Assembly (NCBI GenBank): GCA_019800895.1
Contig: JAHVKF010000001.1
Location: 434,001 to 498,000 of the forward strand
Reading direction: 5' to 3'
Length of the DNA: 64,000 bases
From: Halomonas denitrificans
GTDB lineage: Bacteria; Pseudomonadota; Gammaproteobacteria; Xanthomonadales; Wenzhouxiangellaceae
In this document: piece after piece, positions 3,296 through 18,798 of the stretch
How the letters are laid out: every line of letters starts with the position of its first letter
How positions within the stretch are numbered: the first letter of the stretch is position 1
Position numbers and translations under genes: made by a program
The notes under the pieces: generated by a model
Seen by the model: only the letters and a program-made list of their open reading frames with translations
What the model was told of the DNA's origin: nothing
Database searches by the model: none

Positions 3296-3335
3296 ATCGT
3301 TTTCGTTCCGGTCATCGAAATTCAAAAACCAATTA

Positions 3336-3540
3336 CCGCAGATGAACGCGGATGAACGCAGATGAAAAACCTCAGCAGTTTGCGTTGCAGCTCGCCCGAA
3401 GAGGCTTAATTCCAAGGGTCCGGACCGTCACCGGTACGAAACGTTCGGGCCCTTTTTCAGAAGGGACAAGCGGCCCGCTTCAGTTCATCACCTGCTCGAT
3501 CCGAAGGTCTTATCTGCGTCCATCCGCGTTCATCTGCGGT
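3336..3540. repeat. Family B inverted-repeat pair B1, between trpG and trpD
   Basis: The left arm (about 3336-3367) is made of near-tandem 10-mers of the form GATGAACGCR preceded by CCGCA. The right arm (about 3512-3540) is its reverse complement with one or two mismatches (TCTGCGTCCATCCGCGTTC then ATCTGCGG). About 145 bp of unrelated sequence lies between them, with no convincing ORF. A short A-rich stretch flanks the arms on the outside (AAAAACCAATTA on the left, a run of Ts on the right). The element fills the only sizeable gap inside the trp gene block. Confidence 0.8.
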
Positions 3541-6437: not shown

Positions 6438-6530
6438 GACGGAGTTCCGGCGTGATTGGATCAGGCCCCTATTGTCGCCGAATGAACGGGCCGGGCGGGT
6501 GGCTTCGATCCGCGCCGTGCCATCGACGTT

Positions 6531-6761
6531 CAGATGATGGGTGCAAAGGCGCGAAGGGGCAAAGAAACGCGAAGAAAATCGTGACAATTGGAAAACCGGA
6601 GCCTTCTTCCGCGCTTGCAGCTGAGGTGGACGCTTTCTCGATCTCGATGGTCGAATTGTCACACTGCGCGTGAAAACGCTCATGCTGCCTTGTGGCAGCA
6701 CCTCCTTTCGTTCTCTTCGCGTCCATCGCCCCCTTCGCGCCTTTGCGTCCATCCTCTAGAG
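6531..6761. repeat. Family A inverted-repeat pair, copy A2, between rpe and purC
   Basis: The 400-bp gap between divergent rpe and purC holds this pair. The left arm (about 6531-6580) reads GATGATGGGTGCAAAGGCGC then GAAGGGGCAAAG and a CGCGAAG tail. The right arm (about 6705-6761) is its reverse complement and ends in CATCCTCTAGAGG. The spacer is about 125 bp, noticeably AT-richer by eye, and contains a second nested pair (TGACAATT near 6581 and AATTGTCA near 6655). The spacer does not resemble those of the other copies. The purC promoter lies just outside the right arm. Confidence 0.8.
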
Positions 6762-6801
6762 GGCTCGGCCACCGCGTGCCGATAGACACCCCCACCAACC
6801 G

Positions 6802-7740: not shown

Positions 7741-7965
7741 TTAGAGGACGGACGCAAAGGCGCGAAGGGGCAAAGGACGCGAAGTCACCAGAAAAAGTTG
7801 CTGCCGCAGGGCCGAAAGCTCGTTTCAGCGGACGGAGTGGAACTGCACGAACTGAATCCGGCATCAAAAAAGTCCTATCGAAGCACCGGACGTCGCTTGT
7901 TCCATCTTCTTATCGATTTTTTTTTGCGTCCTTTGCCCCTTCGCGCCTTCGCGCCCATCATCTAG
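7741..7965. repeat. Family A inverted-repeat pair, copy A3, downstream of purC
   Basis: The left arm (about 7741-7784) begins TTAGAGGACGGACGCAAAGG and continues CGCGAAGGGGCAAAGGACGC. The right arm (about 7917-7965) is the reverse complement and ends CCATCATCTAGC. The spacer is about 130 bp with long A and T runs, unlike the surrounding DNA, and has no match with other spacers. It lies between the convergent 3' ends of purC and the epimerase gene, so it may also act as a bidirectional terminator. Confidence 0.8.
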
Positions 7966-9135: not shown

Positions 9136-9259
9136 GGTCCGCTCCTCACCCGCTCGTCGGCGGCCGGCTGTCGATCAGCTCAACTTGCCACGCGCCGCGG
9201 CCGCGAGCAATGGGACCAATGGCAGGGTCTGGCCTCGATCAGGCCTTTGGGGGCGACCC

Positions 9260-9511
9260 CCTAGAGGATGGTCGCAAAGGCGCGAAGGGGCGAAGAAGCG
9301 CGAAGAGAATCAGGATCATCGGAAAAGCATCAGCGGTTGGCGACGCCTTCGGAACGGTCTCGAGATACGGTCGATGGCGGTTGGTCTCGCCCGGCATTCA
9401 ACTTCGGGTCAATTGATCACTCTTGCGGCAGCTTTGATAGTTGGCTTTTCTTTCTCCCGTGCATTTCTTTGCGCACTTTGCTCCTTTGCGCCTTCGCGCA
9501 CATCCTCTAGG
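9260..9511. repeat. Family A inverted-repeat pair, copy A4
   Basis: The 405-bp gap upstream of the Tat-epimerase gene holds this pair. The left arm (about 9260-9310) starts CCTAGAGGATGGTCGCAAAGG and continues GCGAAGGGGCGAAGAAGCG. The right arm (about 9450-9511) is a looser reverse complement ending CACATCCTCTAGG. The two outer ends are therefore near-perfect inverted CCTAGAGGATG termini. The spacer is about 150 bp, with no ORF and no likeness to other spacers. The only other notable content is 124 bp upstream of the epimerase start with no recognised promoter. Confidence 0.8.
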
Positions 9512-9540
9512 GAATCGGGCACGGAGAGAAAACAAAGCCG

Positions 9541-10218: not shown

Positions 10219-10330
10219 TTCGATCCTCTCCTTTGAGTCGTGTTTCCAAGGCCGTAGTGTGGTCGCCCACCGCAAACTTCATGCGAACGCGGTCGACGAT
10301 TCAAGTCGCTGCACTCTGAAGACCATTTCC

Positions 10331-10606
10331 TCTAGATGATGAACGCGAAGACGCGAAGGCGCGCAAGAGAACCAACAGCACTGCTTCAATCCGTTGAACT
10401 GCAGATCGCGCATTGGATTGAATACATGACACCCGTAAGCAAGCGCCATCGGTTCGCGCATCCGGCCGTCGGGCTCCTCCATCCGCGTTTTCTACTCGAT
10501 TCTGCGTTTCCACAAAAACACGTTTTCAATACGTTTCAGTAGTTTTTCCTTTCTATTCGCGCCTTTACGTCTTTGCGTCTTTGCGTCTTTGCGCGCATCA
10601 TCCGGA
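10331..10606. repeat. Family A inverted-repeat pair, copy A5
   Basis: The 357-bp gap between the DJ-1 gene and the RND pump gene holds this pair. The left arm (about 10331-10370) starts TCTAGATGATGAACGCGAAG then ACGCGAAGGCGC. The right arm (about 10542-10606) is longer and contains three tandem CTTTGCGT units at about 10569-10592 before ending GCGCATCATCCGG. The spacer is about 170 bp, AT-richer at its right end. No promoter for the DJ-1 gene was recognised between its start and the left arm. Confidence 0.8.
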
Positions 10607-16093: not shown

Positions 16094-16197
16094 CGGGGGG
16101 GCAAAGGGAAAAGGGGCTAGGGACTAGGGGTCAGGGACTAGTACACACCTGTGGAGCGAGTCATCACTAGCCCCTAGCCCCTCTCCCCTCGCCCCTC
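16094..16197. repeat. Family C G-rich inverted-repeat pair, copy C1
   Basis: Between tdh and kbl, the left arm (about 16094-16141) is a string of G-runs separated by short loops (units such as GGGGCTAGGGACTAGG). The right arm (about 16166-16197) is its inverted counterpart, with units CCCCTAGCCCCTCTCCCC. Only about 25 bases separate the arms, so a long hairpin is possible. Each arm alone satisfies a four-tract G-quadruplex pattern, the left on the plus strand and the right on the minus strand. Confidence 0.75.
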
Positions 16198-16207
16198 GAA
16201 AAAGAAC

Positions 16208-16237
16208 CATCTGCGTTAATCTGCGTTCATCTGCGGT
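16208..16237. repeat. Family B solitary arm B2, just upstream of kbl
   Basis: Three near-tandem 10-mers of the form CATCTGCGTT occur, with variants ending TAAT and GGT. They match the right arms of B1 and B3. No partner arm was found within the tdh-kbl gap. It lies about 30 bases before the kbl start, immediately after repeat C1, so this gap is a composite of two families. Confidence 0.75.
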
Positions 16238-17998: not shown

Positions 17999-18767
17999 TG
18001 TCCGCAGATGAACGCAGATCAACACAGATGAAACCCCTGGGTTACCACCCGCCAGATTCAGCTACTCTGGCCGAGATGACCTCCGGGCAAACAAGGCATT
18101 GCAATGGGAGTTCGAGTCATAGACGCGAATGAGTGACAGGAAGTCCACCGGCTCGCCCGCATTGCCGAAGAGAATCGAGTGCAGGGTCGCAGCACCCAGG
18201 GATGGCCAAGTGCACGATGTCCCTTCATCGGACCAATCTTCCGTGCAGCAATGCTTGGCCTCCGCCGCGAAACGACCTGCATGGTAGGCGATTGACTCGA
18301 CAAACAGATCGGTGGATCGACCATTCTCGATCGCGCGCCCCAGTTCAAGACTCATCAGCTCCTGATGAAACTCGGGTCGAACAAGGTCGAGAAACATGAA
18401 GATTCGGGTGTCCGGAGAAGAGCGATCGCGCCGAAGAGCCTGATACTCGACCAGCGCACGTCCGCTGGCAACCGCCCCTGAACGAAGGTCATCATCGGGC
18501 AGGCATTCTCCAGCCGCCAGCATGACTTCATCGACCGTACTCGGAACCTGCGCTTGCATCTCCAAGCACTTGCGGAACGCCGCAACCTGGGACTCTCGGC
18601 CATGCGACAGGCTGTAGTCCAGATCACCCACTTGAGAATGGACGGGCCCTACTTGAAATGAACCAAACAGCAACAGAACAACGAATGCCCGGATGGTATC
18701 GAATGGACCTGCCAATTCAGTGTCTTCGAGGTTTCTCATCCGCGTTCATCTGCGTTCATCTGCGGAC
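17999..18767. repeat. Family B inverted-repeat pair B3 enclosing one gene
   Basis: The left arm (about 17999-18033) reads GTCCGCAGATGAACGCAGAT then CAACACAGATGAAAC. The right arm (about 18736-18767) is its reverse complement, ending ATCTGCGGACTAA. The first 20 bases of the two arms are identical when compared in inverted orientation. Unlike B1, the interior is about 700 bp and carries a complete gene running leftward. No transposase or recombinase is inside. Clear target-site duplications were not found. Confidence 0.75.
18062..18739 (-). CDS. Hypothetical exported protein inside repeat pair B3
   Basis: No family was recognised. The frame encodes 225 residues. After a short charged N-terminus, a hydrophobic stretch (about 17-31, RAFVVLLLFGSFQVG) followed by PVHSQ looks like a signal peptide with cleavage near residue 36. 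The mature part has seven cysteines, including a CC pair in AKHCCTEDW, and several Arg/Glu-rich helices. The start ATG falls in the right B3 arm, where the repeat sequence GCGGATGAG provides it. Codon and base composition look less GC-biased than in neighbours, with many AT-ending codons, suggesting acquired DNA. There is no partner gene. It may be a cargo gene of the element, or an old resident gene that the arms flank by chance. Confidence 0.6.
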   Translation of the reverse strand: MRNLEDTELAGPFDTIRAFVVLLLFGSFQVGPVHSQVGDLDYSLSHGRESQVAAFRKCLEMQAQVPSTVDEVMLAAGECLPDDDLRSGAVASGRALVEYQALRRDRSSPDTRIFMFLDLVRPEFHQELMSLELGRAIENGRSTDLFVESIAYHAGRFAAEAKHCCTEDWSDEGTSCTWPSLGAATLHSILFGNAGEPVDFLSLIRVYDSNSHCNALFARRSSRPE

Positions 18768-18798
18768 TAATTGCCTTTGAAGCTGCCCCCTCGATCCG

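Follow-up and report, generated by a model that had tools for sequence, protein, structure and literature searches.

An orphan gene whose start codon lies in a flanking repeat, enclosed by inverted arms of a kind that elsewhere often frames GxxExxY nuclease genes

A single orphan gene lies between two inward-facing arms of a repeat that was found dozens of times in this bacterium and also in many phyla and that elsewhere often frames a nuclease gene. For this reason, such arms and what they enclose look like a family of small DNA elements that has not been described before and that can hold different contents. We consider it somewhat probable that the arm pair enclosing the orphan, here designated B3, is a small inverted-repeat element of the class associated with GxxExxY proteins and that its cargo is an unusual one. 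"The window" below means the whole stretch of 64,000 nucleotides that was analysed, and coordinates are positions within it unless stated otherwise.

The B3 arms (pair I8) occupy positions 18000 to 18038 and 18729 to 18767, are 39 nt each and 85% complementary, and are separated by 690 nt. The left arm, CCGC-AGATGAACGC-AGATCAACAC-AGATG, is on the plus strand, faces inward, and has copies genome-wide; the right arm is on the minus strand and has its core at positions 18737 to 18765. The site is a convergent gap with an ion-channel gene on the left (PF07885; 17482 to 17964, plus strand; 37 bp from the element) and a 2OG-Fe(II) oxygenase gene on the right (PF14226/PF03171; 18799 to 19752, minus strand). 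The original prediction that B-type arms surround one gene was confirmed, as a 225-codon minus-strand ORF stands alone between them. B1 and B3 do share an arm type, as had been claimed: B1 (pair I10; 3335 to 3540) has arms of 29 nt (97%) at 3335 to 3363 and 3512 to 3540, and its 148-nt interior is without an evident gene. The single B-type arm B2 (16208 to 16236, minus strand) has no detectable partner.

The orphan gene (18062 to 18739, minus strand) encodes a probably exported product with six cysteines, at residues 58, 79, 164, 165, 176, and 213, and not seven as first counted. Its start codon is indeed contributed by the repeat: the ATG at 18737 to 18739 falls inside the right arm, where it is the third ATG and closes the arm core (CCGCAGATGAACGCAGATGAACGCGGATG, followed directly by AGAAACC). 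Translation might alternatively begin at codon 9, an in-frame TTG. The N-terminus, earlier described as signal-like, contains a hydrophobic stretch (IRAFVVLLLFGSFQVGPV), with which a signal peptide is a compatible reading. The gene was also rightly seen as less GC biased, since its GC contents by codon position are 0.64, 0.46, and 0.61, against a host GC3 of ~0.88; this genome's own GxxExxY gene is likewise less biased (0.62, 0.36, and 0.68). ORF length alone was rejected as proof of coding, being weak in GC-rich DNA: none of 500 mononucleotide shuffles yielded such an ORF, yet ORFs of at least 225 codons arose in 25, 87, and 190 of 3,000 simulated interiors each under three Markov models (0.8% to 6%). 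We therefore relied on length and the codon-position GC pattern jointly, a combination that two order-2 models, each simulated 6,000 times, never produced (0 of 12,000), and thus the orphan ORF is, or was recently, coding, without the host codon bias. An AlphaFold model of the product, built without relatives, was unusable (pLDDT of 44).

Searches of Pfam, NCBIfam, PADLOC, and PHROGs, of viral contigs, plasmids, and phages, and of partly overlapping samples comprising 101 relatives and genomes from the class (369), the order (399), and the phylum (398) yielded no relative of the orphan. Matches with E values of about 1e-4 in genus g6, to segments of copper-transporting P-type ATPase-like proteins and aligned over a hydrophobic stretch, were judged to be due to chance. 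The orphan was thus found in one genome only among all those searched, which included over a thousand other genomes, and an orthologue at the same locus without arms, which the original prediction had named as evidence against itself, was not found in them. Our guess is that the gene is passenger DNA and that its product is a small protein, either secreted or periplasmic.

In this genome, the B-type arm is present in 63 copies at up to three mismatches, and a reversed-pattern control gave none. All of the 33 arm pairs examined face inward; B3 is the longest at 764 bp, and the others measure 143 to 526 bp. The other 32 interiors hold no evident gene. A crude gene caller based on codon bias placed no gene in them; having been trained on host codon use, it overlooked the orphan as well, so that these 32 interiors may yet contain unadapted genes. 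When compared all against all, the 33 interiors were unrelated, the only resemblances being nested arms and short matches of low strength. A search of the interiors of this genome's copies for a GxxExxY remnant found none, and the reading of them as decayed GxxExxY genes was rejected. The elements are located in 14 convergent, 19 tandem, and 0 divergent gaps, while across the whole window divergent pairs account for 7 of 48 pairs of adjacent genes. Two arm dialects, CCGC and CCAC, are usually matched between the arms of one pair. However, the likeness of CCGC arms is no higher within pairs than between pairs (15,896 of 20,000 permutations reached the observed value); base pairing pair by pair is therefore unlikely to be the force conserving them, and the explanation that the arms are kept by pairing with each other was rejected for this main dialect. 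We infer that each arm is recognized by the same factor. On either side, the base adjoining the arm is mostly A, with complementarity in 28 of the 33 pairs (e.g., positions 18767 to 18771), meaning that the repeat runs one base further outward. An Rfam search gave nothing credible.

Presumably, GxxExxY proteins often start with residues that translate the B-arm repeat, a suspicion that we then tested on genes of this family (PF13366 PDDEXK_3/TIGR04256). Inverted arms with a score of at least 14 flanked 50 of 54 GxxExxY ORFs in a first set, comprising 53 ORFs from the window's order and one from a GTDB scan, and 39 of 48 in a phylum-wide sample (23 of 28 and 16 of 20). With one flank shuffled, only 1 of the 48 was flanked by arms, and the channel gene, used as a control, was flanked at 0 of 14 loci. 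Altogether, arms were present at 89 of the 102 arm-tested loci, which are not all independent because many come from related genomes. The exact B dialect surrounds GxxExxY genes at L086, L088, L095, L096, L148, and L281, and other loci have CCAC, 9-bp-unit, CGCAAAG, and CACAGAG forms. The expectation that start codons recurrently fall in the arm held for the GxxExxY genes whose arms consist of 10-bp GATGAAC units: in 9 of 9, the arm contains the earliest in-frame start and offers an ATG. All 10 genomes with at least 10 B arms have PF13366, versus 11 of the 33 others among the 43 genomes counted (Fisher's P of 1.8e-4, kinship ignored). The only PF13366 gene of the genome studied here lies between A-type, not B-type, arms.

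The GxxExxY family consensus (FRADLLVEDKVIVELK) displays a D...ExK motif visible by eye. A structural model based on two sequences (pLDDT of 63) had no significant match in the PDB, and several of its weak top matches are nucleases, e.g., Bax1, PvuRts1I, PspGI, and TnsA. Almost no literature was found on this family, whose name is known from the NCBI and Pfam family libraries; neither a function nor an element is described for it, and the arm sequence is not found, in the literature searched. Among the loci collected, L280 (G068 C111:7500-11000) has three tandem GxxExxY copies with a 426-bp period and a common right arm, and the same in-frame TAA is present in two of the three. In genome G005, there is a further arm dialect, CCGCAAATGAACGCGAATGAACGCAAAT, which is usually self-paired; one such pair, with 31/31 identity, flanks a GxxExxY gene (L289).

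An exact arm scan of GTDB representatives gave at least 117 stretches, mostly in metagenome-assembled genomes (MAGs). The matches listed include Cyanobacteria, Planctomycetota, Latescibacterota, Verrucomicrobiota, and Bacteroidota, as well as acidobacterial, proteobacterial, Chloroflexi, Gemmatimonadota, and archaeal records. Of the ~101 arms among the matches listed, 49 have a detectable inner partner, versus 3 with an outer one. Cross-phylum pairs among these matches are mostly 58 to 280 bp long, and pairs of 454 and 491 bp carry GxxExxY. In a Rhodopila MAG (L135), a B pair encloses an ORF for a YefM-like antitoxin (PF02604; E value, 5e-8). A total lack of genes between other arm pairs had been named as counting against the original prediction; GxxExxY and YefM-like antitoxin genes are so enclosed. 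At L135 (3888 to 4587), the left flank and arm are repeated directly after the YefM-like element. Arms are also carried by viral contigs, in which the two long pairs are without a GxxExxY gene. On one viral contig with several B arms (L303, 6314 to 7058), two of them bracket an ORF that, by eye, is phage structural-like.

In species G004 of the same genus, the gap between the channel and oxygenase genes also contains a pair of arms, which surrounds ~150 bp of unrelated sequence that includes neither the orphan nor another gene. Both species have a single arm or a pair at 12 of 15 compared sites (single arms at two of them, L058 and B2), a figure that is not a conservation rate because most of the sites were chosen for having a G004 arm. 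The G004 arms at B2 and B3 are divergent, with a 9-bp first unit, and were recognized by eye, their automatic scores being only 22 to 24. In a G004 segment taken regardless of arms (C23:70001-110901), the B2 and B3 sites are shared, and B1 and L038 are absent. Orthologous interiors showed no similarity in 10 of 11 pairs and one weak match, and the likeness of arms was slightly higher at orthologous sites than at other sites (0.777 versus 0.757; 543 of 20,000 permutations). At two orthologous sites, the dialect has switched in both arms. Two congeners (G001 and G003) and many family members have no or nearly no arms.

The arms were originally compared to a cassette boundary, and they do recur with different contents (none, GxxExxY, YefM-like antitoxin, or orphan). 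The part of that claim concerning exchangeable cargo was not supported as worded: it implies swaps between intact ends, yet at the sites orthologous in G004 the arms change too, and interior drift or whole-element replacement explains the turnover as well as cargo swapping does. No clean empty site was recovered, although one between the channel and oxygenase genes of relatives had been suggested as worth seeking; no transposition event was seen, and no target duplication was noticed in the listed outer flanks of the 33 pairs.

We propose that B3 would be one copy of a dispersed element whose ends are inward-facing arms of tandem 10-bp units. The coding form would carry a small PD-(D/E)XK nuclease gene (GxxExxY, PF13366/TIGR04256), whose translation in the B dialect would begin at the arm ATG, and most copies would be short gene-free derivatives. 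In B3, an orphan gene for a probably exported protein would take the place of the nuclease gene and use the ATG of the arm. The arms may act as recognition ends, and GxxExxY, supplied in cis or in trans, could cut or process them so that elements spread or are renewed, an action suggested by position alone. The orphan may have entered by replacing an earlier interior. Interiors could change through (i) neutral drift between selected arms, (ii) replacement of the whole element, or (iii) capture, and B3 would be a case of the last. The placement in the GxxExxY class is consistent with the inward-facing tandem-unit arms of a GxxExxY dialect and with the start of the enclosed gene in the arm. However, neither a PF13366 match nor a remnant was detected in the cargo of B3, which can therefore be no more than a relative of the class, of the non-coding or the cargo-bearing type. 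Also counting against this placement are the unrelated interiors without a GxxExxY remnant, unlike those of ordinary deletion derivatives or miniature inverted-repeat transposable elements (MITEs), and the A-type arms around the sole GxxExxY gene of this genome. As proposed, the element would nevertheless tie GxxExxY to a defined DNA neighbourhood, making its function directly testable, and would bring the repeat families with units of GATGAACGCA, GCAAAGGCGC, and CACAGAGG together in a single class of elements. It is unusual that an arm consensus is kept while the whole interior turns over, and the orphan illustrates how an arm site can house a gene started from an arm codon.

A broader version of this proposal, which we hold only tentatively, is a hitherto undescribed cross-phylum element class in which the arms are the substrate of GxxExxY and the nuclease places pairs of them around any DNA, or renews them there, so that the interior (nuclease, antitoxin, orphan secreted protein, or nothing) is exchangeable. 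The four-helix S23 elements, including the intervening sequences (IVSs) of 23S rRNA, would then be a sister class with arm dialects of their own.

It is rather unlikely that the arms are instead 3'-end or nucleoid structures maintained by the host, either long stem-loops or paired sites bound by a host protein, and that their loops are free, so that interiors drift neutrally while the arms are under selection, the orphan having landed or arisen in one such loop. Such structures would account for arms that persist at orthologous sites around interiors that cannot be aligned, a pattern that also counts against the element model, as well as for the restriction to convergent or tandem gaps and for the usual matching of dialects within a pair. 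Nevertheless, the main-dialect arms are no more alike within a pair than at random, so that pairing is not what is conserved, the arms are missing or nearly so in G001, G003, and many family members, and the finding of nuclease genes between arms at 89 of the 102 GxxExxY loci tested for arms would be left unexplained.

An element acting at the RNA level, like the IVSs of 23S rRNA, with an arm stem cut by RNase III and ORFs as decaying passengers, appears improbable. In the Coxiella IVS, the terminal inverted repeats form a stem of 28 bp, GACAGAT heptamers stand in tandem ahead of the S23p ATG, and the ORF inside is decaying (PMC4990558). The class to which we assign B3 resembles it in its terminal inverted repeats (~28 bp in IVSs), in the short tandem units that precede the start of the ORF, and in having one small, losable ORF. 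The B3 strand also folds with its arms paired (z score, -3.9), and four-helix TIGR02436 (S23 family) genes (L230 to L259) lie between inverted arms of tandem 7- to 9-bp units at 16 of 21 loci. However, the arm dialects of the four-helix genes differ in sequence from the GxxExxY arms, and the arms within the main dialect do not covary. B3 is intergenic between protein genes, not in rRNA; rRNA excision is irrelevant to it, and the cargo is of the nuclease family or an orphan, the cognate protein here not being a four-helix one. No S23p or four-helix ORF is present in B3, where the orphan has no NCBIfam match. Equally improbable is an ordinary gene caught between two separate arm copies that different elements left behind, truly started at the in-frame TTG of codon 9 and with the arm ATG a coincidence, since, although arms are often nested or in tandem (L041, L049, L054, and G004 C4), B3 has a single inward arm on each side, the G004 site also has one arm pair, and use of the arm ATG is systematic in GxxExxY elements with GATGAAC units.

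Among the closest known systems is the GxxExxY family, whose genes the B dialect frames in relatives and in other phyla, with the ATG in the arm, whereas B3 holds an unrelated orphan. REPIN/RAYT systems have many short extragenic inverted-repeat pairs per genome and a candidate enzyme between related repeats (PMC3116915). The inverted doublets of this genome resemble them in logic but not in parts: the B arms are tandem direct 10-bp units and not REP palindromes, the spacers are long and unrelated, and the associated protein is of the PD-(D/E)XK type instead of a tyrosine HUH transposase. Terminal inverted repeats and gene-free copies dispersed in gaps are also features of MITEs and insertion sequences, but the B copies, unlike MITEs, share no interior, and no DDE transposase is linked to the B elements. 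Integron cassettes share the combination of a boundary repeat and variable cargo, whereas the B pairs are single, scattered, and inverted, an architecture that does not suggest an attC array or an integrase. Because it lacks a defining feature of IVSs and one of MITEs and is without the nuclease of its own class, B3 is filed here among interspersed inverted-repeat elements.

The window also contains five A-type arm pairs with GCAAAGGCGCGAAG units, at positions 1213 to 1407, 6513 to 6776, 7742 to 7964, 9254 to 9517, and 10330 to 10605. The A type is the dialect that frames the only GxxExxY gene of this genome (L064). At the site of the last pair, the sister species G004 likewise has A-type arms, with a different interior. 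In addition, a small gene-free arm pair with AGGGGCTAGGGACTAG units (16105 to 16189) adjoins the single arm B2, and its arms resemble those around the four-helix (TIGR02436) gene of this genome (L230).
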